A DNA stretch of 64,000 nucleotides from Styela clava (taxonomy: Eukaryota > Chordata > Ascidiacea > Stolidobranchia > Styelidae), in assembly GCF_964204865.1 (NCBI RefSeq), contig NC_135264.1, forward strand, positions 5,176,001 through 5,240,000, written 5' to 3'. The translations under genes were made by a program, and so were the position numbers. Of the stretch, positions 14,105 through 59,577 are shown one piece after another. The notes below the pieces were generated by a model. The model worked only from the letters and a program-made list of their open reading frames with translations. It ran no database searches and was not told the DNA's origin. The stretch's first letter is position 1. Every line of letters begins with the position of its first letter.

Positions 14105-14111
14105 TATATAA
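14105..14111 (+). promoter_or_regulatory. Candidate TATA box of the collagen-like gene
   Basis: TATATAA lies about 70 bp upstream of the ATG at 14181. Transcription would then begin near 14135 and leave a short leader. This is placed only by motif and distance. Confidence 0.35.
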
Positions 14112-14180: not shown

Positions 14181-17100
14181 ATGAAGTTAGCACTTGCATT
14201 TCTTGTCGCATATTCTGTTGTAACAGTTGTGTCAGCATATAACCCATTTGAATTATCGGATTCATTAAGTGCCAATGGTGATAATGATGAATTTAATGAT
14301 TTATTAACAAACTACGATAAGAACAAAAACAAGGACAAAGATAAAAACAAGGATAAAGACAAAAACAAAGACAAGGACAAAAATAAAGACAAGGACAAAA
14401 ACAAAGACAAGGACAAAAACAAAGACAAGGACAAGAACAAGGACAAGGACAAAAATAAAGACAAGGACAAGAACAAAGACAAGGACAAGAACAAGGACAA
14501 AGACAAAAATAAAGACAAGGACAAGAACAAAGACAAGGACAAAAACAAAGACAAGGACAAAAACAAAGACAAGGACAAGAACAAGGACAAGGACAAAAAT
14601 AAAGACAAGGACAAGAACAAAGACAAGGACAAAAACAAAGACAAGGACAAGAACAAGGACAAAGACAAAAACAAGGATAAAGACAAAAACAAGGACAAAG
14701 ACAAGAACAAAGACAAGGACAAAAACAAAGACAAGGACAAGAACAAGGACAAAGACAAAAACAAAGACAAAAACAAGGACAAAGACAAGAACAAAGACAA
14801 GGACAAGAACAAAGATAAAGACAAAAATAAAGACAAAAACAAAGGCGATCCTGGTCCTCCCGGGAGCAAAGGCAACCCTGGAGATGATGGTCCCCCAGGA
14901 AGCAAGGGCGATCCTGGAGATCCTGGAATCAAGGGCGATACTGGAAGCAAGGGTGATCCTGGAGATACTGTAAGCAAGGGGGATCCTGGAAATCCTGGAA
15001 GCAAGGGCGATACTGGAGATACTGGAAGCAAGGGCGATACTGGAGGAGATGGTCCTCCCGGAAGCAAGGGCGATACTGGAGGAGATGGTCCTCCCGGAAT
15101 CAAGGGCGATACTGGAGATAATGGTCCTCCCGGAGACAAAGGCGACCAGGGAGATAAAGGAGAACCTGGTAACCCGGGAGGAGTGAAAGGCGACAAGGGA
15201 GATTCAGGAAGTAAAGGAGACTCAGGCTCCCCAGGAAGTGACGGTAATGATGGCTCGTCAGGAGGACCTGGGCCTAAAGGAGATACAGGAAATCCAGGTC
15301 CACCGGGAGCTCCCGGAATTCCGGGAAAGGATGGAGAACCTGGAGGTAAAGGATCTAGTAGCGGCAAAAAAAACAAGCTTTTACAGACATTGGCACTTTT
15401 CTCTATATTAGGAAAACGACCGAGCAATAGAAATGTTGGAGGTCGAAGACCACCTCCTAATCGAGCGGTTCACAGTCATGGCGGCTTACCACCACATAGC
15501 CACGGGCCAGGAAACACAATGTCTGGAAATGCTGGATACCATGTGCACTCTCCTCCAAATTCTGGCACGACAACATACACACGGCCTCAAATAAACCAAC
15601 ACAATCATGGACAGGGCGGAGATGTAAGAAATCCTATTGGCTATGTCAAACCTCACATGCACACAAGTAATGGAGCTATTATTGGAGACGTTCCAGCACA
15701 TTCTCACCGACAGTCTCCGGCCGGTATAGGTTTGCATTCCCACGGTCCGAACGGATATGTTGAACCTCAAAATAGTGCAACCAACCATAGGCACGATCCC
15801 GTTAGTGGTCTTCCCGATCGATCTTACGGTGTCCAGCCTCACACTCACACTCAAACAAGAAGACCTCAGCTGCAATTAGAAACACACCAGCACGCACCAG
15901 ATGGACGTGTGATTGGAAATCAAATCCCTCATTTTCATTTCTCTCCAGGTGGCAGAGTCTCTTCCGGAAACGTCCCGGATCATACCCATACCCAAACAAG
16001 CAATATCCCTCCTCGGCAAAGACCAGTTGGATCCCACGTTCACAATTCTCAAGGAAATGCAATTGGAAATGAGTCACCACATACACATGGAGTTTCTGGG
16101 GATATCAGTAGCGGATATAACGTTCCTCCTCACACTCATCAAAGGCAAGTAGCGTCTAACGGCATACATACCCATGGAACAGACGGTAGAGTTTTCGGGA
16201 ATTCTGGTGTTTCTCAGCATATCCATAACAATGACGGGAGTATAACATCACTATCGTCAGGACAAATAAATTATCACACCCACAATTCAGTTGTTCGAAC
16301 GATTGTGGAGCAACATGCACACATTGGCGGCCAGGCAACAAATGGCGTCGAAAGTCATAATCACAATGCAGATGGTAGTGTGGTGGAACCACACGTAGCC
16401 CAACACAGGCATGTACACGGTTCGAGTGGAACGGCATACAGTGATGGTCAATCGGGGACTGTTGGAGGTCATATGCACATTTCGGGTGGAACAACATACA
16501 GTGGTAGTCAATCGGGGACTGTTGGAGGTCATATGTACAGTTCGAGTGTAACGACATACAATGGTGGTCAATACGGATCTTCTCCCGGAACAACCCATTC
16601 CGGGAGTCACGCGTATAATCACGGAGGAAGTTCACACTACGGAAATAGCTGCCAAAAACACGTTTCGGTGGGTAGATTAAATTTCTAACGCTTAAACTAA
16701 TTTTAATCGATTACACTTCGTTTGTTCTTATATATGAATAGCAAACACGACACCAATACCATACAATACCAAAATTTGAACGTACAAACACACATTTAAA
16801 GTGGAATACTTTATCAATATCTACTGACTTCTACACAAAATATAGATCGATATCTAAAAATTTGTAAAATGGAATCACTTGAACAATCGTTACTTCCTCA
16901 ATATTAAAAAGGCGATCAAAAATTTTTGCTTGTATTAAACCGAAAATATTTAAAGTGATAACGTAATCATTTTCTTCATATTATCTTTTTTTATTCAGCT
17001 TGGGCTTCAAGAATGCAGAACTGATCCAAAGTAAGTCTCATTTTGTATAAAGTCTCATTTTTTGGGTAATGCTTTTGGAACTTTTATTTCAAAAAACAGT

Positions 17101-18405
17101 TGGATAGAAGCATAATTATTTAATTATAACAATATACTTAACAATTGATAACTTTGAAGTTTAAAAAACACTTCGTGCTATTTATCTACAATAGTATTCA
17201 CAAAAATGTTTTATCAAATCAAAACCACTTTCCCAACAGTTCTGCGCATTTATTACGCAAATGTCTGTCGTCTCTGCCATACGGTCAAATTGAAGATCTA
17301 TGCAAAACCAAAACGGACATTTGTCAAGTGACCATAAGTGTTGGATCGAACACTCAACACAGCAACGTGAAACTCTCTCATCCTATTTATCTTAGAGGAG
17401 AGCAATGCGAGTAAGTACCTAAATTATATAGAAAAAATAATTGTACTGTAATATATTTTGTAACTGGTCCATTTTTCTGTCCTATTTTATCCCGTAACTT
17501 TCTTTACGGTAGCAATGAAAAATACTCGTTTATAATATATTTGCTTTGGCGCATTCTGCTAGCCCAGTCACTATACCGATTAGAAAAAATGGATTTTAGA
17601 ATAATCTGTTTTAGAACGAACACATTAGATTAGTGCGGCGCTAAATCAAGCATAGGTAAAGAGCATAAGTTACAATATCGCCGTGACCCATCTGACGAAT
17701 CTTTGTAGCATAATTGTTTGATTACAACAAAAATATAGAAAGTTTCCAGCATTACTGTGTCATTTTGTAGTGGTGGAGTAGTTGACGCAATGCTAAATTA
17801 GAGGCCAGGAGGTAAGCTTTCTATTATGATAGTTTTGCTTTCAAACAACACAAATGGTTGATACATATACACATGCTATAATGAATACAAATTCGTTTTC
17901 AGAGGCCGCGACGGACATCCTTGTGGGACGACTGCAGGAAGCTACTTCGATCCTTCTTACGCTTCTTCATGTAGATGTCGCACAAAGATTTGTGAATCAG
18001 TCGTAGATACGTGTTACGTCTATGGTGGAAAATTATATTCATCAAAAGCTAGAGTTAAAGTAAGTGTATTATTGTTACCCATTGTGTGATAATAATGTGC
18101 TTTTAATGTTTGTGTTTTTCACAATAAATGCATAATTCGTATAATATAGAGAAGTCGTAATAGCGCAGATTGTGCAGGGCCGTCGACTCACCCGGGCAGT
18201 AATAAATTGATGACGATGTCGTAATAAATAACGATTTTTTTATTGTTACTCATAATTATTTATTCTTAGATTGTAATCGTCAACTTTATGACGTCACTTA
18301 TGTAATCGCCTTGTGAAAACTTTAAATTTTTTTTTACAGCGCCCGTGTGGTTGTGAATGTTATCAGGAATACACACATGTCCAGACGAAGACCCCGACAA
18401 AATAG
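14181..18405 (+). CDS. Secreted collagen-like protein with KDKN repeats, HxH-rich region and Cys-rich tail
   Basis: My splice model is 14181-16667, 16999-17030, 17240-17410, 17903-18059 and 18340-18405, joined in frame to 970 aa. A signal peptide covers residues 1-19 (cleavage VVSA/YN). Residues 46-221 repeat a Lys/Asp/Asn hexapeptide. Residues 222 to about 392 are Gly-X-Y collagen, with Gly replaced by Val264 and a four-residue break at GGVK. Residues about 430-765 carry about 22 His-X-His motifs spaced roughly 12-20 residues apart, often in the setting H-x-H-x-x-x-G-x-[IV]-x-G. The last about 145 residues hold some 14 cysteines, ending RPCGCECY. The first exon stays open to 16688, but the donor at 16667 extends the protein into Cys-rich exons. 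Family knowledge: collagen helices trimerise and HxH repeats can bind metal. Inference: an extracellular trimeric metal-binding fibre. The Cys-rich tail could be a cystine-knot-like domain; I cannot assign it. Confidence 0.85.
14316..14843 (+). repeat. 18-bp coding minisatellite (Lys-Asp-Lys-Asp-Lys-Asn)
   Basis: Tandem 18-bp units encode a charged hexapeptide over 176 residues. Units differ mainly at synonymous third positions (aaa/aag, gac/gat, aac/aat). Four-residue units (KNKD) shift the phase near the 3' end. The frame stays open because every unit is a multiple of three. Confidence 0.95.
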
Positions 18406-19099
18406 TCAACCTGTAGGAGAGACATGAAAAGTTTTGACGTTTCTACTGAAATAGACTAACATTGTGGATTGTTCGATTATTTCAAAACATAGTAAATCTG
18501 AGAGGGAATTTAAAAACTATAATATATATGTTCTGCTCTATGACTGATTTCAATTCGTAAGCATGAATTGTAAAAGTGGATTTCAGCAAGAATGCTTTCC
18601 CGCTTGGCACATGTTTAATGCGGTACATTATTTAGCTTAAATTATATTAAAAGTTGGCACATACTTGACTGAGAAGGAATGGACTCTAAGGTTTACTGTG
18701 TTATTTTTTTCATATAGCGCTTTTATGTGGTGAATGTTATTAAAACTGGTTCTAGATTTTATTAATTAATATTCTGTTTATGACGTCACTAAATTGCGAC
18801 ATTTAAAGTCTCTTGGCCAGGTCAGAAAACTTACATTCGATAAATGAATAAAAAATGTAACAGAAAATTTTATATTGGTGTTATGTGTTTAAATTTTTTG
18901 GTCGTGGATGATAAATCATCAAATTATTCGTTAAAATTTTCTAAACAATAGCGAATTTGTGAAGAATATATGTAATAGTGTTAAAAGGCCTTACTTACTT
19001 GAATAAAGTTCGTTCTCTTCGTCAAGTCCAGAAAATGTTGCGTTTTAGGAGATAAGTAGGTAGATAGAATACGACGTTCGAGCGTACCAGATCACGTCA
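18406..19099. other. 3' flank of the collagen-like gene
   Basis: No gene is seen here. The stretch contains the probable 3' untranslated region, with the AATAAA at 18847, and then AT-rich sequence up to the hAT-like insertion. Confidence 0.5.
18847..18852 (+). terminator. Candidate polyadenylation signal of the collagen-like gene
   Basis: AATAAA lies about 440 bp downstream of the TAG at 18403-18405. It is the first canonical hexamer I noticed in the 3' flank, and no transcript end is known. Confidence 0.35.
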
Positions 19100-32700: not shown

Positions 32701-34536
32701 AAAATATGGGGTTAATATGCTAGTGCTTGGGGAACCTATTTCATCGTGTTCCATTTTATATTACAGGTCTTTCAGGTTCATTGTCCTGCTGTTGGTGAAT
32801 ATATTTTAAAGATATTCGGGATGTCTAAAAAATTTTCTGACGAAGAAGTATTCACCAATATAGCTTTATATCAAATCAATTGTCCAAAATTGAAATCGAA
32901 AGGAAAACATACTCCGAAAGATCCGACAAATGTACTGCCATCTGAAATATCCGCTCCATTCCCCGAAGTAAATATGCCATGGGGACCACCAACAGGACCA
33001 AGAGCTCTTGCTGTATCCCCCATGTCACACGGAGGGCCAATTATAACCTGTGATAAGAATGGCGAAGCAACTTTAGTTATGCAAATACTGAGGGGAGAAA
33101 ATTTATGCTTTTTACAGCAGCTGTATGAAGCGGATGGTAGAGTTGACACAACAAAACAGGCTCTTCAAGATAATGCTGTGCATTTAACAACTATGACAAG
33201 GAGTCAACATCGAGCAGTCGTGTTTTGTATTCGCACTCCCCATTCTGGAAACTTTTCACTGAATCTTTATCTCAATACGGAATCTGAAGGAAATTTCACC
33301 GGTTTCTGCAACTACCTAGTTGTTTCACCCTCACAGTCGAAGCAAGCCGTACCATTTCCAATAGTACCAAATGGAGATCTGGGGCCAAACGCGAAAATCT
33401 GTCGTGACTTGGGAATATTTCCCAGAGCTTTTAATAAGTACGTGACGCATAACGCGGGTAAATTCCTATCAGATTTTGGTGAATCATGGATTCAAACAAA
33501 TGAAGAAAATATGGCATTAATCACATTTACCCACTCGGAACCTATGGTCTTTCTGGCTGATTTGTCCGGAACAGGTCGCTGTGCTGGCGCAGACCTCTCC
33601 AGAAACATTTTGATAGAAGATACCGGCAAAAAAGTACGAATTATCATCCACCCTCCAAAATTTGACCATGATTCTCCTGAATGCGCGTTAAAAGTGTTCG
33701 CCGCGCCTGCCACTCAAAAGACAGGTATACCTGTAGTTTACACAGCGTTTGTTCAAAACGCTAGTAAAGAACCAAAACTTCTCCCTCAATCTCCAACAAA
33801 AAGATGGGGTCCCGGAACAAACAACCTTGATGCTGAGTTTTCTGTGGTATCGATCTTGAACTCAGAACCATCTTGGACGGTAGATTGTGAAGATGACGGA
33901 AAAGATCCTACGCCGTGTCAAATGTATAAAGGTGGCAAAGATATAGTCTTCCAATTTGCACTAAAAAGGCCATTGATTTTGAAGCCTGTTTTTTCGATCA
34001 TCCAGCAGAACGGGTCATTTACTGAAGTTGGTGATGGTTTCTCACTTATATCCAAAATGGATCATTTGAGTGTTACATTATCTATCCGAATTCCGAAAGC
34101 TGGTGATTATTGTCTATCGCTTTTTGGAGGAGATTCGAGTGGTCAAAGCGTTCAACTGTTGCCTCTATACTATAGTCTCTTGTCAGCCACGGCATCGAGT
34201 GAATGCACAAGTCAGTTTCCACGTTCCTTCCCCATATGGAATTCAAGTATATCGCATCTACACAGCCCTTCAAGTAAAGATCTGCAACGTAATAATGTTA
34301 ACAAAATCAGCGTCTCAATAAGCGAACGTTTAGATACAACTTCACGGCCATATACAAAAGTTATGTTGTTAACCGATAAATCACAAGCAGTGTCACCTTC
34401 CAGAACCGATGCAAATATTAACCTCTATGAATGGGAATATGTTCCAGGCCCAGGAGAAAAGATTGTTAGCTTGGTTGTACAAAAGACAGCTCAGGACTCA
34501 TCCTTGACATATGCACTACAGTTTGACGTAATTTAA
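23737..34536 (+). CDS. KY/hillarin-type transglutaminase-like protein, probable pseudoenzyme
   Basis: My 14-exon model totals 1176 aa: 23737-23793, 24112-24186, 24298-24411, 24773-24889, 25634-25736, 26603-26678, 27300-27486, 27696-27877, 28150-28285, 29211-29359, 31443-31615, 32003-32157, 32356-32592 and 32767-34536. All junctions keep frame. The start MGCGSSKG fits N-myristoylation plus palmitoylation, so membrane anchoring is likely. Residues 20-300 are acidic and low in complexity, with a basic stretch in exon 7. The transglutaminase-like core lies at about 345-520 (VRILFHWIT, KTYAELF, GSWNAV, LIDTHWG, EHYFLTNP). The large last exon holds the KY-type C-terminal repeats. KY relatives act as cytoskeletal or cross-linking proteins. 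The usual catalytic Cys (C-x-G-Y) and His (H-x-W-N) positions are Arg387 and Gly432, while Asp447 remains. The donor after exon 4 (GTTTGA) is weak. An unseen 5' untranslated exon is possible. Confidence 0.88.
28608..28675 (+). repeat. Interspersed repeat fragment, copy B
   Basis: GAAGCTTGTC, AAAGGCTGGTTGTGTAGAAT and TGATCATG repeat the fragment at 22290-22356. It lies in intron 9 of the KY-like gene. Confidence 0.55.
29457..30787. mobile_element. hAT-like nonautonomous element in KY-like intron 10
   Basis: The ends are CAGGGGTTCTCAAAC and, on the complement, CATAGGTTCTCAAAG. The flanking 8-mers ccttagag at 29449-29456 and 30788-30795 are identical. The subterminal word GCGGAGCCC occurs near the left end and twice near the right end. 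The insertion does not disturb the surrounding exons. Confidence 0.92.
30796..30818 (+). mobile_element. Second hAT-like terminus abutting the first element
   Basis: CAGTGGTACCCAACCTTTCT begins immediately after the shared 8-mer ccttagag. It looks like the left end of another hAT-like element, but I found no matching right end in the intron. Confidence 0.45.
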
Positions 34537-43500: not shown

Positions 43501-46500
43501 AAAGGTGAAAATTTTCAGTGATATAAATTTATTAAAATTAGGGACTGATACTGCTTCCAAAAGGCATCAATAAAATTGTAACCTGTAATTTCTTGTAGCA
43601 TGCCTATGCTGCTTTCAAACTACTCTCAATTATGTTTCCTTTCTCACCTAATAAACCATATTGCATGCTTAGGTTTGGATGGACTTGGTGAAAGATGTGC
43701 TCAATACAAAGCTGATGGTTGTGATTTTGCAAAATGGCGATGTGTTCTGAAGATCACAGACAAGACTCCATCTCAACTTGCTATCAATGAGAACGCCAAT
43801 GTTCTTGCTCGTTATGCTTCGATTTGCCAGCAGGTAAAGCCCAATGGGATTTGGTATAAATTGGTAGTATAAATATGTCTAACCTTTGCAGACATATCAA
43901 TCAACTTGTTTAACTCTTTTCAGTTCTTAGTTATAAGCCACTTCAAGTTATAAGATGTAAAGTTTCGGATGGATAGTTAATTGAAATTTCTGATGTCTTG
44001 ATTTCAGCCTAAAGCGAAATTTATAGCCTACCTGATGCCTACACTACCATTACGGCATCGTGTTGTAGAATTTTTACTTTTGAATGAGTGCACATGCATT
44101 CCTTAGATAGGCTATTAAAAATATTATTATATTAGTGAATGAAAAATTTGTTTTTTAGCATGGCATCGTTCCCATTGTTGAACCGGAGATTCTTCCAGAT
44201 GGTGAACATGACCTGGAAAGATGCCAATATGTTACCGAAAAGGTAGAGTTCTTACTAGGATTTTTTGAATAAATTAAGTCTAGTTAAAAGTAACAATCAT
44301 TCAACTTCCTCCTCACCTTTTATCATTGTGACTGTGACTATCAGGAAACGTAAAATTATAAACAGTTAAGCATGGCCATGGATAGAGAGCACTCTGAGTC
44401 ACTGTACTTTGAGTGGGAAGCCATTTAGTTAAAGTGAAAATATTTGTCAAGATAAATAATGATATTGGCATGAACTACAACAATTCTTGTGTCAATCAAT
44501 GGTTTGTGTACCTACCAGACAACAAAAAATTCCATTCCCGAAGTTTTTTTCAGTTTTATGAAATTCAGTACTTCAGTACAAATAATGACATGTTAATCAT
44601 AATCCAGGTCTTGGCGGCTTGTTACAAAGCCTTGAGTGACCACCATGTCTACCTTGAGGGAACACTTCTCAAACCAAACATGGTCACTGCTGGACACAGC
44701 TGCCCAATCAAGTACACGCCACAGCAAGTCGCTGAAGCTACTGTCACTGCTCTTAGAAGAACTGTACCCTGCATTATGCCAGGTAGGTATTTCTAGTTAG
44801 TCTTCTGTGCACTGTACTTTATCTTATAATCACCAAAAGTTATACTTTGAATTAGTTGTGTTTATTTATATGTAGTCTTCATAAATTGTGCAAAGCTGGA
44901 GTCGGAATTGCTATGGGATAATTAGTATTAGAATATTCTTGACTGGTTATGCTTCATATTTTTTTAGTTTTGATGCTTATGACTGAATTTTTTTCGAATT
45001 GGTGACATTGCCAGCAACTTATGTTGAGAATATTTTATAGTATTGCTGTTAGGGGCATGTGTATAATTATATGCACCCTTATTGTGGGTAAAGTGGGTTC
45101 TATCATGAAACCGATTCAAACTTGAAAATTTTGCTTTAAATTATATAGGCATTATAAAAAATTTATGATATTCTGATTTTATAATCAATAATAACCTTAT
45201 AAGTCTACTTCACCGTCGGCGACTATATTATATGTGATGTATTAGTGCTCACTGTCTATTTGATATTGCATTTCTTAGATTTGGTTCGATATCTGGTAAA
45301 GGATCCCTTGGGATTGCTAAAGTAAAAAAATGAGGCCAATGCATTATTTTTCAAGAATTTTTAGAGAATCGGTCGGAATTTCTCTAGCCCATGTTTGGTC
45401 TCCTTGCTTCCAGCTGAGAAACGCTTGTGTAGTGTGAATGTATGAATGAGTGCTTCTGTTACGTTAATTTTTTTTATCTTTATCCAGGCGTCACTTTCCT
45501 CTCTGGTGGTCAATCAGAGGAAGAAGCTACCGCTAATCTTAATGCCATCAACAATGTACCTGGTATCAAACCATGGGCCCTCTCGTTTTCGTTTGGCCGT
45601 GCATTACAAGCATCTGTCTTATCAGCATGGGGTGGAAAAGCTGAAAACACGGATGCCGCAAAGAAGGCTTTGCTTTACCGTGCACAGGTTTGTGAAATAA
45701 GTGATTTGTTTACATTTGTCTCATTGATGGGGAAAGTGAGTTTCATGTTTTTCCATTGCACACTCATTTCATTAGGAAACTCAATTTGCGCACATTTGAA
45801 ACCAATCCCTAAAATCATGGCGCAGATTTAGTATGCACACTAGAACATCATTTCTTGAGCATGGATATGATTTACATAATTATCCTGGGGGAGAGGAAAG
45901 TCGATAAGGCGGCTTTATCATATGATAAACCACGGCCTCTCGTTCGGTTACCATTTCATGTAGGGTATGGCATGGCATTAGTTATTTATTTGTTTTCGAA
46001 AGCATTTACGTGAACCTACGACGGCGAGGAGTCCAGCAATCCTCTTGCACATAATCATCCCTGCAAGAGATTAGAACCTGCGAACCCACGCAGGGTAATC
46101 AGAGGTGTAGTGGCGAGTGTATATTCCTAACGGTTAGCACGATGAGCCACACCGGGGCGCATTGATGTTCTGCATTGGTTTGCAGGTTTGAATCCTGTGG
46201 GGGGGGGTGAATATTCGTGAGAATTTTTCTAGAATCCTCGCCCGTCGGCGCAGGGTGGTTACAACATCTTCGCGACCGTTAAGTTCATGCATATGAATGT
46301 TTGCTAACTATTCCCATACCCAACATGGACTGGTAACAGCATAAGAAGCCATGAATCACCATATAATTGAGCCATCTTATTGGCTTTCCTCTCTCCGAGG
46401 TCCCAGGATAAATACTCAAATTTATCCTTTTTCAGATGAACAATCTCGCAGCACAAGGAAAATACGAAGGCGAAGTTGCTGGTGGAGCCGCAGCTCAGTC

Positions 46501-46923: not shown

Positions 46924-47429
46924 TACGAGTTCAATGGCAGAGGGTTATAGCTGTATTGCAGTTTATCCACAGTTGTTAGGAATCCGTGCTGCATCATATG
47001 ATTATGCCGACATTGTTTTTGCTTGATTTTTCACATTTGATTCAGTGTGACATGATGTCGCAATGCTGGATAGAAATGTTTTGGTTCCCGTGTTGCTTCT
47101 TCAATTCATCAGTTTTCTCCCTTTTCGCATTGATTCTGTAAAATTAAGAAAGCATTGTTCTTTTGCGTGCAAAGGAGAATGGGGTGGGGTATTAAATAGG
47201 GGTGGACAAAATAGAGTTACCATATATTCTCGAATTGCGAAAAACCGATCCACAGTCATTGCGAGTATTTCGAATATCCGACACCCTGATGTTTGTGGGC
47301 AACCTTTCCCCTTTTTCAAAACGCGAAAGATGATAATAATTTATTTTTTGGATCGTGTGTGTTCTATTTTCGAGTTTAATAAAAAAAAGTCATTGCGTGT
47401 TGTATTCCCCATTTAAATAGTGATAATAT

Positions 47430-47560
47430 CGGCTCGGTAATGTGGCGCATCGTGCTAAGAGTTGGGTATACGCTCGCCACTGCGCACCTCTGATTACCCT
47501 GGGTAGGTTCGCAAGCTCAAATCCCGTGGGAGGAATTGTGGGACACCCTAGGGTGATTCA
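47430..47560 (+). mobile_element. tRNA-derived SINE in the left arm
   Basis: GTGGCGCATCGTGCTAAG, CTCGCCACTGCGC, CCTCTGATTACCCTGGG and CTCAAATCCCGTGGG form a tRNA-like head. The copy at 59287-59577 is its partner across the inverted duplication, so it was present before the duplication. Confidence 0.75.
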
Positions 47561-48350
47561 AGTAGCCGCTGATAGGTTTCAAAAATTTTAAACCTTTAAA
47601 TTTGAAGTCTCACAGTTTATTAGAGTGATGAGCTGTAGCCGGAACGGTGTTCCGGTTGTTGAACATTTTACTGCATTTGCGTTCCTGTTGTTGAAATAAA
47701 ATTGTGGTACAAAAAGTCTAGTTTCTTTGGTAAACTCGGTTATTAATTTATGTTTTGTTACATCATAATTCGTAAGTCTTTTCACGTCACATCACGCAAC
47801 TACTTAGTACAGCAATTACGTGCAATAGATGTTTTCCCGATCTTTGACTCCATGAATATTCATTCATTTGTATTGAATTGCTAAGAATACTCGTGTAGTT
47901 TTACACAAACATATTTCATATAATTTCTTCACAGTTCATTGCAGTTCTGTAAACGTCCGCGTCGTGTTGTGAATATATTATATTTTTGTGAATTAGGTGC
48001 GTTCCGGTTGTTACGATTTTTCCAGCTCGTCACTGGACATCCCCATTGTGCATCAGGGTGTGTTCAAATGTGATTCACTTGTGGGTGCAGAAGGCCACTT
48101 GACAAAACGTATTTTAGAGGATTTTGGTGGTGAGATGCGTGTTGCTAGGAAATTTCTCAGTTGCTGAACAAAAACCACATTTACCTCTCTCTACATTAGC
48201 CCCACAATGTCAAATGAATGTGCCGGTTATGGGGGTTGAAATAAAAAAGTGACCCATAATACAAAAGCACGTTACTCATTGATTCGGATGTTGATTACAT
48301 ATATGTTATCCATGGTTTCTGTTTCAGAATGAGAATATAAATTTTGGGGG

Positions 48351-48575
48351 CTCCCGAAGTATGCGAACCAAGATGGCGGACATCGGAATGTAATATGTGT
48401 ACTAAGTTAGGGTTAGGCCATAATTTTAGTTATAAATACTACGGGAGGCTCTTGGCTAGTCTTCGAACAGATAATAGAACTAAAATAAGGAAAATTGGAA
48501 AAAAAATTATCGCCTAACCCTAAGGACCCATGTTACGTTCCGATGTCCGCCATCTTGGTTCGCATACTTCGGGAG
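48351..48575. repeat. Foldback MITE, copy 3, with long perfect arms
   Basis: The 225-bp unit begins CTCCCGAAGTATGCGAACCA and has perfect inverted arms of about 38 bp, through AAGATGGCGG and ACATCGGAA. An inner inverted pair contains TTAGGGTTAGGC and its complement. It is missing from the right arm, so it probably inserted after the duplication, or was lost from the other arm. Confidence 0.88.
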
Positions 48576-49043
48576 CGCCAAATTTTGAATCATTCATCAA
48601 AAACGTTTACCATTCCCGCCCTAGTGCATGTCGGTAAATAAATTTCTGAGGAATATGGACGAGGTAGAATTTCTCTTAGAACTTGTTGCGGATAAAGCAC
48701 GCTTGATGACTATTCACATTTTAAATAGAACTGACAACAAGTACCTTACTAGTTGCATTCCTATGCTTTCCAAGTATTTTTAGAAGCCGTAGAAGCTTTA
48801 CAGTTTCAGTAGTCACGTAAGGTTAAATTTTTTTAAATATTTCGGTAAGAATATTTTTAATAACATACATACGGATGCCAGTTTACCGATATGTCGCATT
48901 CAAATTTCGGACCCTTTTCAATTATACAAACAGATTAGAATTTACGTAATATATATATTAGAATTAGTAATTTTGCAATTTGCAAATATATTCGCAGGAA
49001 GCTAAGTTGGGCAAGTTTGAACGTTTTTGCTAACTATTAATCA

Positions 49044-52000
49044 TTATTGAAAAATATTCCTACCTTCAATTTTATCCAAGTCCGTCGCATCAAATCTAAA
49101 TTTGTGGTGAAAAATGGAGCCTCGGATTCTCAATTTGCTCATCACTACATACAACAACATATGTGCACAGTGGTTTCGCGGAGTTGAAGAATGCTCCTCT
49201 CTACATAGAAGGTTCCAGAATCCACTTGCAGCATTGGTGAGTTGTCCAGCTTCGATATTTTCTAGGCAGCAATTGAACTCTATTGTAGCATCCGTAGTAG
49301 GATTGATTGAATATCGCGAAACGAAATTTTTACTGTATCTTCTCAAGCGAAGATATAAAGCGGAATGTCGAGATTTATCAGCGGCATGTAGGAGTAAGTG
49401 GCAGCACTTTGCTTTCAGCGAAGGCGAGTCATGATGTGATTGTAAAATATTCCACACGATAATTGAACATCCCCTCACATCGCATTTGCGAAGACATTTT
49501 AAAGCTTGGATATATATCAACGTTGAATCATTTTTTTCGGAATGAAACCAATTTAGTAGCATATGATCGTTTTCTGGAAAATTCATCAAGCTTACGGTTT
49601 TTTCCGTTGTCAAACCCATGGGATACTGAACAATGTTTGCATACGTCCAGGTTTTCAAGATGAGCGCCTCAAGATAAAAACAAGAATGATATGTGAAACT
49701 GTCAAAAATATCAAGCAAGTTAGTAAGTTGAAGATACACTTTATGAAATCCACCGTCTAAAATATTTTTCGTAAATCGTTTAACCAGGCGATCTACAGGA
49801 CCATACATAACGGGATGACGTAACACCTGCATTGGAGCTTGACTAAAACAGACTTTGTATTTTGAGAAATTGTGTATATGAAGAAGTAGCGTTGCTAACA
49901 ATCCTGCATACCATGTAATTATGTGCACACTTTTGTGTCCACGATTGTATGCGACACTAAAGTCGTTCAAAGCTTGACAAACGTAATCAATGCGTTTTTT
50001 ATCAGGCATTTTCGTTTCCATTATAATAGGAAGATGGGCAAGGTTGGCTAACGCATCATTATAAATTGTTTGTTTAATTTTAGATTCCCGAATTCTGTAT
50101 TGAAATTCCACAGGCTTCAAAGCGTCTTCTATGCAGTTTTGTCGGCGTTGTGTTGCAATAATTTTGTTTAGTGAAACAAGCAAAAATTTTGCAGGGATAT
50201 TTCTCAATTCAGCTTGACATATCTCAAATGATTCCTGTAGAATTTTTCGTGCCTGACAAAAGTTTTCCATCTTAATATTTGCATGAACGATTAAGGATCT
50301 GAAAAGTAGTCGTGAAATACCGTCAGTATGCTCTGCAATACATTTATTTGAGTAGTTTATAATATCTTTCATCTGCATACATTTTCGTAGTGACTGGACT
50401 TGTATATTTCTCATATAAATGAAATTTTCCGATTTAATAAAATCTTCGTTTGTTTTTGCTTCATCGTATTGCTTTGCTATCCAGATTTCAGCCAATTTTA
50501 GACATTCAGTGTACTGTTCGCGAAAATAGTTAATGGTACACATCATCTCAGTGAAGTATTTCGGTTTTTGCTCCACGCAGTTGTCGAGTGTTTTTTCCAG
50601 TTTTGTGATACATTCCTCTTTTTCAAATTTGTCGTCGCAATTCTGCGCAAGGTTCCAATATACTTCAGCAAGATCCCATGGTGGTGTACTATCCGTGCAT
50701 ATATTCTGCAGTAATTGCTTATGCTGGATATCAAAACCATATTGCATAAGTGATAGATTGTTATGATACCCGTTTTCTTCAATAGAGGAGTATGTGTTAA
50801 CTATTCGAATCATTCTCATTCCAAAGTTTACGAAGTCAGCGTCATCGATCTTTTTATAATTGAACATATGAAATGATGCTATCATAATACGATTACTTAG
50901 TAGTAAACATTTTCTGCCGGCAAACTTTGAAAAGTCTATATTAGTAGTGTTTCTGCGGTTTCGTTCGCCTAAGGAATAAACTTTGATTCTAATCTCATTC
51001 GCAACAGTAATTGCGTATCTAAGATCTGTGACGTATTCTAAAACGTCTTTATAGTACGTTTCAATATCTACGTCAGAGTTTCTTTTAGTAACTTTAGGCT
51101 TTTCATTTTCGAAATACTCGATTAAAGTGTCTATCAGAGCGAAACTTGTAAGTTCCGTTGCACCGAATAAATTCGCCATAAGCAATAACCATGTCGTCAT
51201 TGGGCGGTATAATCTATCCTTATAGCTTGCTCACACGGGCCAACCTGGAATCGTCGTGATCCAGAGAGATTTCGATTTACATTTTTAATTTTATACTTTC
51301 CACATGTTCTTTGACTAACAAATCTCTATATTTGCTTTGTAGGAATGTTCTCGATTGTTTTTGGAATTGATCATAAACACCATGAAAGCCTTGAACAAAA
51401 TGGGTGCGTACTAAAATATCTTTAAGATAGTAATCGTTTTAATATGTTCTTCGGAAGTTAAATAGGACACCATTTTACTCACCGGTTGAAGGAGTTCAAC
51501 GATATGTTTGCGATACCTTGATGGTTCTTGTTTTCCCAACGGTGTATTGCACGAATGCGGCACCCTTCCATCAAATGCGACACCTCTTGGAGTAAATGTG
51601 TCGTAAAACCAGTTTTGTGTTTGATTTCTAGGGTACAAATCATTGATACTTTATACTCCAACACTGCAAATAAGAGTTTCACCAAATCCAATAACAATAA
51701 TTTGAAACAAGACAGAAAACCAACGAAAATATTTTTTACGTTGTTGTATTCCGATGGATACTGAATTTTCTCCTCGATAATTATCACATGCACGAAATCA
51801 GAATAAAGTGTGATTTCCTTGCGAGCCAGTGATCCTAAACCAGCAACAGCATATTTGCAAGGTGGTTTCCCAAGAATATCAATACATTGTGACGATGTTG
51901 AACTCATTAGCCACGTAAATTTTTGTGTGTTACTGCACAGCATATTTCTGATAATTTCTACCTTTTTCAATCGTCTTTCCAGAAGTAAATTTTCTGGAAG

Positions 52001-52435
52001 ATCATCTTCTAAAATGGGCAACTTTTCTTTGATGTTCATTTTTTCAACTTCTCGCCATGTGTCGAGTTTTAACTTTTTAGTAGTGGAAATTTCCATCAAA
52101 TCAATATCCATCTTCTGAGCGTGACACTCTCGTAACAATTTAGAATTCATTATTTTTATCATTTGTCGAACTTTTTTTCCTTGATCGAAGTCTTCTAACA
52201 ATTCTTCAAATCTTACTCTTGATCCATGTAACAAGGCGGCACACTTTATGAAATTTAATTTTTGCAGCATGCCTTGGGTTTTAGTTGCTTTTTCTAAATA
52301 GATTTCTCCCATTTTCAATAATATATCTGCGGATTCAGCAAGAGTATTCTCCATTTCGTCCCCAAAAGGTGTGCAACAAGCTCGAAGTGCTTCAGAAAGA
52401 ATTTTTTCACTCTCGGATATTTCATCATTTTCCAT
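49044..52435 (-). pseudogene. Frameshifted copy of the NTase-like helical-repeat gene
   Basis: This is the inverted paralogue of the intact gene at 55278-58676. The first about 235 codons are open from 52435, then several small indels (near 51,730, 51,435, 51,290 and 51,225) break the frame. A long open part of 718 codons runs from 51200 to the original stop at 49044. By hand count about 33 of the first 232 residues differ from the intact copy. In the NTase motif the intact YSDFE is YSDFV here, so an acidic residue is gone as well. The 3' two thirds remain open, which suggests recent loss. A shortened product from the 51200 Met cannot be excluded, but it would lack the NTase motif. Confidence 0.85.
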
Positions 52436-53075
52436 ATCTCTGACAATATACTTTGGTATATTCTAACTTTTTAATAATGGATGTGGAAAATAAGGCAAAA
52501 AAAAAGAAAAACTGTTGCAATAGTTAGATTTGATTGTCTTTTCCAAATATATATATCTCAAGTTGACGCGTAAAATTTTTATCCACTACTCTACATCTTC
52601 GGTACTGTTTCCATGTGAATAACGTTTCCAACCGTCTGCGTAACCGCGGAGATATTATATTACGATATATTGGTTTACGTCTTGATGAAGTTGGTAAAAC
52701 TTACTTTTGTTCAGCAGAAATCTTAAAACCAAAAGCTAGAAGTTTGCGCATAAAACCCATGTAGGCCTATCTCCCGAAGTCATTTGTTAGTAAGATTTTG
52801 GCTGAGATTGGTAGCGACAATCCTGTATGATTGGGTGAAATTGGACCCAAATAGTCATTAACTAACAGTTTATTTTTTGCATTTTAACACAGTATGGAAT
52901 ATCATGCTAGTATTGTTGCGTGACAAAATGAGGCTGAAGCTAAATTATGCGTAAACTGTGGAATTAGTTGTAATACTGGGTATTAGCAAAATTATACTTG
53001 TCGGCGACTCATATCCTTGAAGAACACGGTTTGCTCGTTTAATTTTCGTGAACACGACAAGTTCGGGCAATGAGA

Positions 53076-54660
53076 ATAAATTTTACATGACCATCCGGGC
53101 GAACAAACATTGAAAATGACAAAAAAAAACATTGTTTCTGATTGCTTTCGAGACGATTTGAATTTTGAATACTGATTACCGTTACTGTATTACTATTCGT
53201 CTGCATATTGCCATGCACATATACGTGATTAAAAATAAGCTTAAGGATATAAATTCAGATTATTATCCGCAAAACTTAAATGAAAACTAAATACCAAAAA
53301 TGGTAAAACAATAATTGTTCAAAAATAAGTGGATTAGGTGCAAAACGTGATGTTTGGCTTGTGTTCTGCTATGTGTAATTATCACTTCGAGGTAGGTGAG
53401 GTGAGAACATCAAACGAATTGTTCTTGATTTGTCTAAATTTTAAAGATGAAATTGAGAGTCCCATATATCCGTCTTTGATAGACGAAATTAAAATGACAA
53501 AAATAAAAAGAAATTTTACTTATAACTACAAGACTTTACAAGGAAATAAATATACGTCTATTCTAAATATAATGCGTCGAACCATATGGTTTTTGACGAG
53601 CTCGAATAAGATTTAAATATGGTTTGGCTTAGTTACTTTATTTTGCATTTCTACCAATTGGATTAGGTGGAACACGCGATAATATCACGATATTGGTATA
53701 GTTTTCATTTTACTATTGATTTCTGATTTCTCGCAAATTTCTGAAGAGAATTTCTATGCAATTTTTATATATTATATTTTTACCCACTATCAGTCAGAAG
53801 CTACGAAATAGTATAGCCCTCGTTAGCCCTCATATAGCGAGAACAGCAAAGAAGAATTATCGTACCCTCTCGTAAAATTTCTGATCCGAAGCAAAGCTGG
53901 TTGAAAATTGGGGACATAATGAACAATATTCAGCATGGTTTTAGTATAATTCATTCGTATGTATCACACGAGGACGTCAATTACTTTAAACACGACAAAG
54001 TGTATTCTTATAATTTCGTGGAAAGATATACACCTTGCATTAAGATTATCACATATGGATCGAGTTATCGTAGCTTTAGGTTTTAGGTATTGGGTAAATA
54101 CATGCATAATTGGTCAATAGCAGTGTTAAATGGACAGCAAGTTCAAATTCATGTACTATTCAAAATAACCTCTGTAATTTTAAGTGCTGTGTAACAGTGG
54201 TATTGTAGTATACGAGCGTTTTAGTCCTTTTACTTGCAAAAATTGTTGGTTTTGTTGTTTATTGAACGAAGTAAACAGTAAAGTGATTGATAAGAATTAC
54301 ATTAGAAATTACGTTTTTTGTTCTTTTTGAACAGCACTCAAAACCCGTATATTATTTTTATGCATTTTTTAAAGGAGAATTCTTATCGTCATTGGAAGTT
54401 TCAGGACTCATTTTCAATCGAATAAAATTAACCATAATCCGGAATTAAAACATATTTTGGTTGATCATTGATTTCAATAATTTTAAATCTTCAAATTTGA
54501 AGTTCCACAAAATTTGCAAAAGCTCACTGATTCCGATATTGATTACATTATCTATGACAGATAGTTTTCTTTTTCAGAATGAAAATACAAATAATATCGT
54601 AAAATATTTTTTATGTTTTTTTCGCTCGGATAGTCATACACAATCTATCCTTATAGCACC
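53076..54660. other. Spacer between the inverted arms
   Basis: No gene is supported; the open frames are short and AT-rich. The second half contains the partial direct copy described at 54085-54600. The first half looks like unique noncoding DNA. Confidence 0.6.
54085..54600 (+). repeat. Third, partial, direct-orientation copy of left-arm DNA
   Basis: AATTGGTCAATAGCAGTG with TGGACAGCAAGTT and ATTTTAAGTGC at 54100-54190 match the aldolase 3' flank at 46695-46790. TTGATTACATTATCTATG and TTTCAGAATGA at 54530-54590 match 48285-48335. Order and orientation are as in the left arm, with large gaps. Confidence 0.7.
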
Positions 54661-55277
54661 CCTGTCTTGTCGTGTTTATAAAAACTAAACCAACGAACCT
54701 TGTTTTTGAAGGATATGCGTCGCCGTATAATTTTGCTAAACCCAGTATTACCACTAATTCCACAGTTTACGCATAATTTAGCCTCAGCCTACTTTTGTCA
54801 CGCAACAATACTAGCACGATATTCCACACTGTGTTAAAAGGCAAAAATTAAACTGTTAGTTGATGACTATTCAAGTTCAATTTCTATCATTCATACAAGA
54901 TTTCCGCTATTAATCTCAGCCAAAATCTCACTAATGACTTCGTCCGGAGATAGGCCTACATGGGTTTTATGCACAAACTTCTAGTTTTTGGTTTTAGGAT
55001 TTCTGCTAAACAAAAGTTAATTTTACCAACTTCATCAAGACGTAAACCAATATATCGTAGTATAATATCTCCATGGTTACGTTGAGGGTTGGAAACGTAA
55101 TTCACAAGGAACAGAACAGAAGTTGTAGAGTGAAAATAGATAAAAATTTTTTGTGTAAACTAAAGATATATTCGGAGAAGACAGTCAAATACACATATTC
55201 TGAAAGTTTTTTCTATATTTTCCACATCTTTTATCAAAAATATAAGTTAAAATATACTTAAATATATTGTCAGAAGT

Positions 55278-58200
55278 ATGGAGAATGATACAATATCCGA
55301 GAGTGAGAATATTCTTTCTGGAGCACTTCGAGCTTGTTGCACACCTTTTGGGGACGAAATGGAGAATACTCTTGCTGAATCCGCAGATATATTATTGAAA
55401 ATGGGAGAAATCTATTTAGAAAAAGCAACAACAACTTCAGGCATGCTGCAAAAATTAAATTTCATAAAGTGTGCCGCCTTGTTACATGGATCAAGGGTAC
55501 GATTTGAAGACGTGTTAGGACACTTAGATCAAGGAAAAAAAGTTCGACAAATGATAAAATTAATGAATTCTAAATTGTTACAAGAGTGTCACGCTCAGAA
55601 GTTGGATATTGATTTGATGGAAATTTCTACTACTAAAAAGTTGAAACTCGACAAATGGCGTGAAGTTGAAAAACTTAACATTAAAGAAAAGTTACTCATT
55701 ATAGCAGATGATCTTCCAGAACATTTGCTTCTGGAAAAACGATCGATAAAGGGACAAATTGTCAGAAATATGCTTTGGAATAACACACAAAAATTTACGT
55801 GGCTAATGAGTTCAATATCGTCACAATGTATTGACATTCTTGGGAAACCACCTTGCAAATATGCTGTTGCTGGTTTAGGATCACTGGCTCGCAAGGAAAT
55901 AACACTCTATTCTGATTTTGAGCATGTTATAGTTCTAGAGGAGAAAATTCAGGATTTACCGGAATATAACAACGTAAAAGAATATTTTCGTTGGTTTTCT
56001 GTCTTGTTTCAAATTATTGTTATTGGATTTGGTGAAACTCTTATTCGAAGCGTTGGAGTAAAAAGTATAAATGATTTGTACTCTGAAAATCAAACTCAAA
56101 ACTGGTTTTACGACACGTTTACTCCAAGAGGTGTCGCATTTGATGGAAGGGTGCCGCATTCGTGCAATACACCGTTGGGAAAACAAGAGCCATCAAGGTA
56201 TCGAAAACATATCGTTGAACTCATTCAACCGGTGAGCAAAATGGTGTCGTATTTAACTTCCGAAGAACATATTAAAAATGGTTACTATCTTAAAGATATT
56301 TTAGTACGAACCCATTTTGTTCAAGGATTTTATGAGGTTTATGATCAATTCAAAAAACAATCGAGAACATTTTTACAGAATAAAAATAGGGATTTGTTAG
56401 TCAAAGAATACGTGGAAAATTTGATTAAAAATGTGAATCGAAATCTCTCTGGATCACGACGATTCCAGGTTGGCCCCAATGAGCAAGCTAAGGATAGATT
56501 GTACCGTCCACTGACAACTTGGTTGTCATATATGGCAAATTTATTCGGTGGAATGGAACTTACAAGTTTTGCTCTGATAGACACTTTAATCGAGTATTTC
56601 GAAAATGCAAGTAAAAAGTCTAAAGTTACTAGAAGAAACTCTGACGTAGATATTGAAAAGTACTATAAAGACGTTTTAGAATACGTCACAGATCTTAGAT
56701 ACGCATTTACTGTTGCGAATGAGATTAGAATCAAAGTTTATGCTTCTGGCGAACGAAACCGAAGAAATACTACTAATATAGACTTTTCGAAGTTCGCCGG
56801 CAGAAAATGTTTACTGCTGTGTAATCGTATTATGACAGCATCATTTCATATGTTCACTTATAAGAAGATCGATGACGTTGACTTCGTAAACTTCGGAATG
56901 AAAATGTTTCAAATAGCTAAAATATACTCCTCTACTAAAGAAAACAGACACCATTACGATCTACTACTCAAGCAATATGGTTTTGATATCCAGCATAAAC
57001 AATTACTGCAGAATATATGTACGGATAGTACAAAACCATGGGATCTTGCTGAAGTATATTGGAACTTTGCGCAGAATTGCGACGACAAATTCGAAAAAGA
57101 GGAATATATAACAAAACTGGAAAAAATACTCAAGAACTGCGAGGAGCAAAAACCAGGCTACTTCACTCAGATGATGTGTACCATTCACTATTTTCGCGAA
57201 CAGTACAGTGAATGTCTAAAATTGGCTGAAATCTGGATAGAAAGGCAATACGATGAAGCAAAAACAAACGAAGATTTCATTAAATCGGAAAATTTCATTT
57301 TTATGAGAAATATACAAGTCCAAGCATTACAAAAATGTATGGAGACAAAAGCTATTATAATTTACTCAAATAAATGTATTGCAGAGCATACTGACGGTTC
57401 TTCGCAACTACTTTTCAGATCCGTAATCGTTAATGCGTACATTAGAATGAAAAACTTTTGTCAGGCACAAAAAATACTACAGGAATCATTTGAGATATGT
57501 CAAGCTGACTTGAAAAATATCCCTACAAAATTTTTGCTGGTGTCACTAAACAAAATTATTGAAATACAACGACGACGAAACTGGATAGAAGACGCGCTAA
57601 AGTCTGTGGAATTTCAGTACAGACTTCGGGAATCTAACATTAAACAAACAATTTATAATGATGCGTTAGCCAATCTTGCCCATCTTCCTATTATAATGGA
57701 AACGCCCATGCCTGATAAAAAACGCATTGATTACGTTTGTCAAGCTTTGAACGACTTTAGAGTCGCATACAATCGTGGACACAAAAGTGTGCACATAGTT
57801 ACATGGTACGCAGGATTGTTAGCAACGCTACTTCTTCATATACACGATGTTTCAAAATACAAAGACTATTTTAGTCAAGCTCCAATGCAGGTATTACGTC
57901 ATCCCGTTTTGTATGGTCCTGTTGACCGCCTGGTTAAACGATTCACGAAAAATATATTAGACGGTGGATTTCATAAGGTGTATCTCCAACTTGCTGATTT
58001 GCTAGATATTTTTGACAATTTCACATATCATTCTTGTTTCTATCTTGAGGCGCTCATCTTGAAAACTTGGACGTATGCAAACATTGTTCAGTATCCCATG
58101 GGCATGACAAAGGAAAAAACTGTCAGCTTGATGAATTTTCCAGAAAACGATCATGTACTACTAAATTGGTTTCATTCCGAAAAGAATGATTTAACGTTGA

Positions 58201-58676
58201 TGTATATCCAAGCTTTGGAATGTCTCCGCAAATGCGATGTGAGGGGATGTTCAATTATCGTGTGGAATATTTTACAATCGGATCATGGTTCATCCTCGCT
58301 AAAAGCAAAGTGCTGCCACTTACTCCTACATGCCGCTGATAAATCTCGACATTCAGCTTTATATCTTCGTTTAAAAAGCCACCGAAAAAATTTCGTTGCT
58401 CTATATTCAATCAATTTTACTACAGACGCTTCAATTGAGTTCAATTGCTGTATAAAAATAATCGAAGCGGGACAACTCACCAATGCTGCAAGTGGATTCT
58501 GGAACCTTCTATGTAAAGAGAAGCATTCTTCAATTCTGCGAAACCGCTGTGCACATATGTTGATGTACGTAGTGTTCTGCAAATTGACAACTCGAGGTTT
58601 CATTTTTCAACACAAATTAGGATTTCATGTGAAGGACTTGGACAAAATTGAAGGTAGGAATATTTTTCAATCATGA
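55278..58676 (+). CDS. Intact NTase-like protein with long helical-repeat C-terminus
   Basis: A single-exon frame of 1132 aa. Residues about 1-170 look helical. Residues 195-222 carry AGLGSLARKEITLYSDFEHV, which fits the nucleotidyltransferase pattern G-S followed by D-x-[DE] and resembles the GlnD/DUF294-type N-terminal NTase (GS, then D213 and E215). A possible third acid is D289 in RGVAFDGRVPH. Residues about 350-1130 are Leu-rich, with tyrosine- and cysteine-bearing helices of TPR-like appearance (for example YFREQYSECLKLAEIWIE). I cannot name the gene or its substrate. Family knowledge: this NTase fold transfers nucleotides to proteins or small molecules. The intact frame beside a broken twin suggests this copy is the functional one. 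No signal peptide or membrane segment is obvious. It could instead be a catalytically silent scaffold. Confidence 0.8.
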   Translation: MENDTISESENILSGALRACCTPFGDEMENTLAESADILLKMGEIYLEKATTTSGMLQKLNFIKCAALLHGSRVRFEDVLGHLDQGKKVRQMIKLMNSKLLQECHAQKLDIDLMEISTTKKLKLDKWREVEKLNIKEKLLIIADDLPEHLLLEKRSIKGQIVRNMLWNNTQKFTWLMSSISSQCIDILGKPPCKYAVAGLGSLARKEITLYSDFEHVIVLEEKIQDLPEYNNVKEYFRWFSVLFQIIVIGFGETLIRSVGVKSINDLYSENQTQNWFYDTFTPRGVAFDGRVPHSCNTPLGKQEPSRYRKHIVELIQPVSKMVSYLTSEEHIKNGYYLKDILVRTHFVQGFYEVYDQFKKQSRTFLQNKNRDLLVKEYVENLIKNVNRNLSGSRRFQVGPNEQAKDRLYRPLTTWLSYMANLFGGMELTSFALIDTLIEYFENASKKSKVTRRNSDVDIEKYYKDVLEYVTDLRYAFTVANEIRIKVYASGERNRRNTTNIDFSKFAGRKCLLLCNRIMTASFHMFTYKKIDDVDFVNFGMKMFQIAKIYSSTKENRHHYDLLLKQYGFDIQHKQLLQNICTDSTKPWDLAEVYWNFAQNCDDKFEKEEYITKLEKILKNCEEQKPGYFTQMMCTIHYFREQYSECLKLAEIWIERQYDEAKTNEDFIKSENFIFMRNIQVQALQKCMETKAIIIYSNKCIAEHTDGSSQLLFRSVIVNAYIRMKNFCQAQKILQESFEICQADLKNIPTKFLLVSLNKIIEIQRRRNWIEDALKSVEFQYRLRESNIKQTIYNDALANLAHLPIIMETPMPDKKRIDYVCQALNDFRVAYNRGHKSVHIVTWYAGLLATLLLHIHDVSKYKDYFSQAPMQVLRHPVLYGPVDRLVKRFTKNILDGGFHKVYLQLADLLDIFDNFTYHSCFYLEALILKTWTYANIVQYPMGMTKEKTVSLMNFPENDHVLLNWFHSEKNDLTLMYIQALECLRKCDVRGCSIIVWNILQSDHGSSSLKAKCCHLLLHAADKSRHSALYLRLKSHRKNFVALYSINFTTDASIEFNCCIKIIEAGQLTNAASGFWNLLCKEKHSSILRNRCAHMLMYVVFCKLTTRGFIFQHKLGFHVKDLDKIEGRNIFQS

Positions 58677-59286
58677 AAAATAGTTAAAAAGAACTTTCAA
58701 ACTTATTGTCTAAAACCACACGTTGCATCCTGCAAATATATTTGCACATTGGCAAATTACTAATTCTAATATATTACGTAAATTCTAATCTTTTTGTACA
58801 ATGAACAAGGGTCCAAAATTTGAATGCGACATGTCGGTAGACTGACATCCGTATACACGTATTTAATCAAATTATTCATACCGAAAACGACTCGATTTTG
58901 CAACTTGGTGGTTCAATAAGATATAAAAAACGGATTCCAATAGAGCCCGCAGAAATTATTGAAAAAATAAATTACAGACTTCCATCTACAACAACAATAT
59001 TTCCCACTGAAAATTTCAAAATTCATCTGACACTCAAATTTTCTCACGGCTCTCACAAACTGGCATAAACGACAAAATCGAGTATTCGTTGTCTCTGTTT
59101 TTGTTTTTGTTCAAATTCAGTGCCTATCTATCTTTCAATTTCTAAATGAGCATAATGCGCGCGAGATTTTCAATAATTTTTGGGCCATTTCGTGAATTCA
59201 GAAACACTGTATTCCATGAAAAAATTTCGATATTATCAGAAGGAACTGTGATTTTGGCGTGTAGAATTAGATAGGATTCACGTGTT
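58677..59286. other. 3' flank of the intact NTase-like gene
   Basis: No gene is seen. A canonical AATAAA occurs at about 58966. Homology to the left-arm flank fades at about 58,860. Confidence 0.5.
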
Positions 59287-59577
59287 ATCCAAGGGGAGAG
59301 GAAAGCCGACAAGAAGTCTTAATCATTTGGCAAACTATTTCCTCTCGTCCGGTTACCAGTCCATGTCCATTAGTTTACTAGGTATTTATTTCAGATACAC
59401 TTAATAGTGAAGAAAATCGTAACCGACCAGCGCTTACTCGAATCACCCTACGTCCAACAATCCTCTCGCACATACTTATCTCCCTCGGAACCCAGGGTAA
59501 TCAGAGGTGTGAGGTGCGGTGGCGAGCGTATTCCTAACGCTTAGCACGATGCGCCACAAAGTCGAGCCGATTTAGTC
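59287..59577 (-). mobile_element. tRNA-derived SINE in the right arm
   Basis: On the minus strand it reads GTGGCGCATCGTGCTAAGCG, GAATACGCTCGCCACC, CCTCTGATTACCCTGGGTTC, then a body ending near GTCGGCTTTCCTCTCCCC. This is the most complete head in the window and shares its body with the SINE in aldolase intron 8. Confidence 0.8.

Follow-up and report, generated by a model that had tools for sequence, protein, structure and literature searches.

Mussel byssal preCols (preCol-D, -NG and -P) are secreted collagens with His-rich non-collagen stretches that are held to cross-link via metal (PMC6477608). According to the published description, a central collagen is flanked by silk- or elastin-like segments and by His-rich domains of 20–100 residues at both ends, and the interaction of these collagen-attached His-rich domains with metal has been modelled as reversible bonds (PMC6477608). 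Spaced histidine pairs are also described in phage and pyocin tail fibres, where the motif His-x-His (HxH) in a trimer gives six-His iron sites in pyocin fibres and T4 gp37 (PMC6116203); a model of the tail fibre of alterophage R22Y, which has six HxH motifs, likewise shows a trimer containing iron sites (PMC11705849). Here we describe a gene coding for a collagen stretch, an array of 22 HxH motifs and a Cys-rich tail, located in a 64,000-nucleotide stretch of DNA (the window; positions 5176001–5240000 of contig C19) from a genome of 376.6 Mb. The preCols are the nearest described design that we encountered, and the window gene is best viewed as a collagen whose His repeats are likely to serve metal binding, within an ascidian-type repeat-protein family without a Pfam match.

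Gene model, collagen stretch and HxH array

The gene lies on the plus strand of the window at 14181–18405. Its five-exon model, with an ATG at 14181 and a stop at 18405, encodes 970 residues; all introns are GT-AG and the reading frames join across them. Exon 1 (14181–16667, with the donor GTGGGT after 16667) is open for 829 codons without a break. It holds the signal peptide (approximately residues 1–18, 14181–14234, judged by eye), a charged repeat, the collagen stretch, the HxH array and the first Cys of the tail, and splicing therefore matters for the Cys tail only. The tail continues through exon 2 (16999–17030, 32 bp), whose phases match those of a relative, exon 3 (17240–17410), with the first half of the Cys-rich domain, and exon 4 (17903–18059), with the second half (CRCRTKIC...), to exon 5 (18340–18405), which carries the PCGCEC end and the stop. 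Exons 3 to 5 were assigned from the gene model and an alignment, together with the spliced relative described below, genome matches for exon 4 and the downstream matches of relatives for exons 4 and 5. The order of signal peptide, charged repeat, Gly-X-Y stretch, HxH array and Cys-rich domain, as proposed in a first-pass annotation of this DNA, is borne out by the five-exon model. At the genomic level, the same applies to the joining of the HxH exon to the signal peptide and the Cys-rich exons: the signal peptide lies in the HxH exon itself, and one relative shares the exon number and the intron phases 0,2,2,0.

The charged repeat (residues 46–221, 14316–14843) is composed of K, N and D only, and 27 exact NKDKDK units make up 92% of it. 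It is underlain by an 18-bp tandem array of 29 copies (14319–14836), the codons of which vary (AAA 47, AAG 40, AAC 26, AAT 5, GAC 52 and GAT 5 among the 175 codons counted). The collagen stretch follows at residues 222–391 (14844–15353). Its Gly-X-Y pattern, as expected of the collagen superfamily, is nearly unbroken, with 56 Gly-led triplets (13 of them KGD) and two imperfections, and the protein matches Pfam Collagen with an E-value of 6.3e-21. A collagen part of the kind that the first-pass annotation had expected to trimerise the chain is thus present, and it would probably do so. At 14970–14972 a Val codon, GTA, replaces that of Gly, which may be a variant, an error or a natural interruption. 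A linker (15354–15470), in which we read a short hydrophobic run (LLQTLALFSIL) and basic sites, leads from the collagen stretch into the array.

The HxH array spans residues 431–766 (336 residues, 15471–16478) and contains 22 non-overlapping or 23 overlapping motifs, in units approximating to V-x-[PQ]-H-x-H-x-x-x-G-x-V. About 22 evenly spaced motifs had been noticed at first pass, and both their count and their spacing lie far beyond chance. The 23 overlapping motifs fall within 409 residues that contain 52 His, for which 20,000 composition-preserving shuffles averaged 6.5 motifs and never exceeded 17. The mean spacing is 15.9 residues with a coefficient of variation of 0.19, as compared to a null mean of 0.79, and none of the 20,000 null sets was equally regular. 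Spacings are both odd and even, from 12 to 22 residues with a first pair at 8, and no two His of the HxH stretch stand at a distance of 1 or 3. The units have diverged, with a mean nucleotide identity of 0.39 and mixed His codons (CAC 28, CAT 24); the 22 pairs have nonetheless been kept. Downstream, a Gly/Ser/Tyr/His tail (16479–16667) contains, as read from the sequence, two degenerate units (HMY and HAY), and a 60-bp tandem repeat of 2.6 copies (16416–16572) extends into it from the array.

The units were aligned as non-overlapping blocks. Counted from the first His of each motif, three further positions are conserved. Compared with 5000 shuffles in which His was fixed and local composition was not preserved, position −3 is hydrophobic in 16 of the 22 units (11 Val, 3 Ile and 2 Leu; 4.6 expected), a count reached at any offset in none of the shuffles; position +6 is Gly in 11 (3.8 expected; 0.18% of shuffles reach 11 at any offset) and position +8 is hydrophobic in 11 (4.4 expected). 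The middle residue of the motif is Gly or Pro in 0/22 units (p about 0.001) and strand-favouring, by residue classes of our own, in 15/22, against a background of 42%. Taken together, these three positions and the strand-type middle residue give each unit a strand-turn-strand look: it resembles a short strand that carries both His, followed by a turn around +5/+6 and by another strand, also short. Searching the genome for a second HxH gene, once with a 407-residue query and once with a core of 122 residues, matched the window gene only, in a search whose first pass was loose, so that a single copy is unproven. A Pfam match of the HxH stretch to NAD_binding_8 (E-value 2.3) was taken as chance.

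A family of Cys-rich repeat proteins

The last 149 residues of the protein hold 14 Cys, and this tail found no match in Pfam or the PDB. In Pfam scans, neither exon 1, the HxH stretch nor the Cys tail matched the vanabin family PF11437. A match of one relative to CNRIP1 (Pfam, E-value 0.11), which would have given the Cys domain a known fold, was also taken as chance. Searching the genome with the Cys tail gave three weak relatives (E-values 0.05, 0.6 and 2), each carrying a separate downstream match to the PC.C.C end, as if the same intron were shared; the family matches on contigs C4 and C5 come from this search. The conserved Cys pattern ending in PC.C.C that characterises the family is present in the window gene. 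One relative on contig C10, once spliced, has five exons with the intron phases of the window gene (0,2,2,0) and a signal peptide judged by eye. Its tail aligned with that of the window gene at a Smith-Waterman score of 158, a value reached by 0/2000 shuffles (mean 37.6, standard deviation 6.7, maximum 74). When the spliced C10 relative was itself used as the query, 22 exon matches were returned at E-values up to 10, three of them the query's own exons. Six others, at 0.01 or better, all lie on C10 at 12.29–12.43 Mb; the remaining matches, on C10, C16 and C19, are weak and include the window gene's own exon (E-value 0.17).

The five C10 relatives that were measured carry Ser/Gly/Tyr/His arrays of 74–297 residues, with PHGSNSGSYEPSSV- or SHRGSNSGGYGAS-like units, between two Cys halves, and two further C10 stretches (L029 and L034, which overlap and show a single neighbourhood) hold short versions of the array only. 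These repeats sit in the equivalent of the fourth exon, and those of the window gene in exon 1. The conserved Cys halves and the differing arrays indicate, at the level of sequence, a family that holds its Cys-rich ends constant while exchanging its repeats. Among the stretches of relatives that were read, which cover the upstream exons of a minority of the members, the window gene is the sole member seen with collagen and HxH. Shared ancestry of the HxH units and the PHG or SHRG repeats of the relatives was considered and rejected: in nine of ten comparisons the profile score was no higher than that of the best among 20 shuffles, and the tenth gave 2.8 against 2.4 bits.

The alignment of the Cys family was joined by eye. 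Row 2, one residue short at a join, was restored from the spliced exons, and the X in row 4 (C5) marks an in-frame TAG. The first half of row 6, the first C4 copy, is out of frame because the exon of this copy seems frameshifted relative to its neighbour. The family claim rests on the spliced C10 relative and the remaining rows.

At 12.32–12.43 Mb on C10, five stretches (L035–L038 and L028) form a cluster of Cys-rich genes whose conserved Cys halves enclose Ser/Gly/Tyr/His arrays that differ in their repeat unit, and basic RYKR-type sites lie ahead of the five measured arrays. On C4, a minisatellite-like frame rich in Gly-Thr-Arg/Ser triplets (17945260–17945949) lies on the opposite strand, approximately 14–17 kb from the Cys-rich gene pair.

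Proposed role of the HxH array

We favour, at about an even chance, a secreted structural matrix protein, probably trimeric, whose HxH strands would bind metal as cross-links in the manner of the byssal preCols. From the sequence we infer how such a protein would work, from its trimerisation and strand conformation through metal binding, cross-linking and disulphide assembly to the tissue it would serve. Many Lys-Gly-Asp triplets suit a stable collagen triple helix, into which the Gly-X-Y stretch would fold three chains, so that the HxH arrays of all three would begin in register. A strand with HxH makes a good bidentate ligand for metal, and the units may be short extended strands in which each His pair acts as such a ligand. 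With chains and molecules side by side, the His pairs could form reversible metal cross-links through Fe, Zn, Cu or V, while the K/N/D repeat may act as a soluble charged spacer and the Cys-rich tail would set assembly via disulphides. A structural role would fit the relatives, which appear to be secreted repeat proteins that share the Cys ends and carry Ser/Gly/Tyr/His arrays.

The window gene shares with the preCols the combination of a collagen and a His-rich stretch; it departs from their arrangement, in which the collagen is central and flanked by silk- or elastin-like segments, with a His-rich domain at each end. Its HxH array stands between the collagen and the Cys-rich tail, and the comparison is one of layouts, made against the published description. 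The first-pass annotation had known of no described animal protein with this layout. That statement needs softening, since the mussel preCols are collagens with His-rich metal-binding ends, albeit in a different layout (PMC6477608). None of the titles and abstract beginnings listed by the literature searches names a collagen of an animal that carries an HxH array. The available passages of a paper on the larvacean house proteome make no mention of histidine (PMC3390340).

Several observations weigh against a metal-crosslinked matrix protein. The His-rich ends of preCols are short terminal stretches (20–100 residues), whereas the window gene has one spaced array of 336 residues. The collagen stretch has Val for Gly at residue 264 and a register slip at residue 336, where GGVK contains one extra residue. 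The invariance of His among the units is a matter of definition because the units were selected by HxH, and at least two adjacent tail units have lost a His (H-x-Y). Furthermore, the arrays of the five measured relatives hold no HxH, and metal binding by HxH is therefore not a family trait.

The protein could instead be a metal carrier or store, a secreted collagen-like sponge of the blood or the tunic that holds vanadium, iron, copper or zinc. The 46 His within residues 431–780 speak for such a function, and vanadium handling is plausible because the genome carries vanabin-type exons. However, nothing links the window gene to vanabins, and a collagen with a Cys-rich tail is in our judgement an odd build for a carrier, which makes this role unlikely.

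We consider distinctly unlikely a role of the array that does not involve metal, be it pH-switched assembly, adhesion or service as a target of METTL9, which would methylate its histidines. The His-rich peptides of preCols are described as assembling on a rise in pH, and gels form without metal (PMC6477608). METTL9 homologues have been reported in all metazoans, the enzyme requires HxH, and the zinc binding of an HxH peptide is lowered by 1-methylhistidine (PMC9006661, PMC7873184). The motif is common to METTL9 substrates and the window array, but the enzyme's preferred middle residues (A, N, G, S and T) are not enriched in the latter (13/22 against a background of 51%, p 0.30), and Gly is absent.

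The first-pass annotation had likened the array to the needle of the T4 long tail fibre. In such a structure the collagen would hold three parallel chains in a slim beta fibre, with His pairs meeting on the axis in octahedral iron sites of six His, approximately 22 in a row; we consider this, too, distinctly unlikely. A collagen helix could indeed set the register of three chains, the strand-type middle residues fit, and the chain, like those of the T4 gp37 tip, R-pyocins and alterophage R22Y, combines HxH with an expected trimeric state. The comparison of units, however, argues against a slim needle. It rests on one phage protein, gp37, the seven tip motifs of which tend to G-x-H-x-H-[ST]-hydrophobic-x-hydrophobic, whereas the window array is conserved at −3, +6 (Gly) and +8. 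The two agree in that gp37 is also hydrophobic at −3 in 3/7 motifs, and the array's +8 is in phase with His. On the other hand, gp37 is hydrophobic at +4 (5/7) and +6 (4/7), where the window array is so in 1/22 and 2/22 units, and has Gly at −2 in 6/7 motifs as compared to 5/22. The strongest hydrophobic position of the array, −3, would be out of phase with His in a regular strand, Pro occurs at −1 in 6/22 and at −2 in 4/22 units, and the spacings, at 8–22 residues, are both odd and even. Spacings in the gp37 tip are 9–37 and in the central run of R22Y 22 (PMC11705849), against 12–22, with a first pair of 8, in the window array.

Homology searches pointed the same way. The HxH repeat profiles matched neither gp37, on which they scored at most 0.8 bits, nor any PDB chain (two profiles, no match at E-value 10). 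The 406-residue HxH stretch had no match in PHROGs, NCBIfam or the PDB (E-value 1 in each), and a 128-residue piece of the array had none among 50,697 phage records at E-value 0.1. Residues 500–709 gave 2 and 11 short-pattern matches in IMG/VR and GTDB contigs, none of which was confirmed, in a search that sees close relatives only. At the sensitivities used, these absent matches speak against an array that is of phage origin or homologous to phage fibres, and the likeness to the T4 needle is not backed by the sequence. Improbable, in our estimate, is the related proposal that an animal collagen triple helix aligns three 336-residue arrays so that they form a beta fibre filled with metal, its six-His sites lying in line and numbering up to 22, a design reached independently and possibly loaded with vanadium or iron. 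To our knowledge, this in-line six-His HxH design is otherwise known from phage and pyocin fibres and spikes.

That the model is a relic or mis-joined, with no functional HxH collagen, is very improbable: although the gene is known from genomic sequence alone and has Val for Gly in its collagen stretch, exon 1 is open for 829 codons, the exact peptide repeat is preserved while its codons vary, and a relative with identical intron phases scores 158 against a shuffle maximum of 74.

Genomic setting and significance

Pattern scans of the plus strand around the gene suggested a candidate TATA box at 14105–14110, approximately 75 bases 5′ of the start codon, and putative polyadenylation signals of the ATTAAA type at 18646 and 18739 and of the AATAAA type at 18847–18852, with a second AATAAA at 19002. 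Rfam and tRNA scans of the window returned no match, nor did a 17-base pattern run on it. Elsewhere in the window, a 570-residue open frame on the minus strand (65–1777) contains a DDE_1 transposase domain (E-value 3.2e-22), which we take to be pogo/Tigger-like, and a PHD-finger-like C-terminus below the Pfam cut-off. An exon with a KY-type Ig-like domain and two exons of fructose-bisphosphate aldolase were found at 32716–34536 and 44413–45831. A large inverted duplication, with arm pieces 82–95% complementary, occupies 47002–59990 and may reach further, as the search began at 47000. Its right arm contains a 1141-residue DUF294-type open frame (55251–58676), the counterpart of which in the left arm is present as two open frames (49044–51230 and 51479–52462).

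Among animals, GH6 fused to cellulose synthase marks the tunicates, and the genome contains one GH6-domain exon (PF01341, E-value 1.5e-6; 0/14 control genomes). Four vanabin-type exons with Cys-dense translations were also found (PF11437, 26.2–27 bits, just above the cut-off of 25; 0/14 control genomes). Vanabins have been isolated from vanadium-accumulating ascidians (PMC9486056). With the GH6 exon and the vanabin-type exons as ascidian-type marker genes, the source of the DNA is very probably a vanabin-bearing ascidian, an ascidian being the kind of animal that the first-pass annotation had considered. The four vanabin-type exons (L016–L019) are nearly identical, two lying on C17 (10.37 Mb) and two on the short contig C112, and perhaps represent one array split in assembly.

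In what is very probably a chordate, the window gene brings together two themes otherwise met separately, the trimerisation of collagen and metal ligands in the form of spaced HxH motifs. The family to which it belongs consists of secreted repeat proteins that cluster in one genome and match no Pfam model; their Cys-rich ends are conserved while the adjoining repeats change completely. If the array of the window gene binds metal, the gene would provide a defined protein, open to expression, for studying how metal is incorporated into the extracellular material of ascidians, and it would be a chordate parallel to the byssal threads of mussels.

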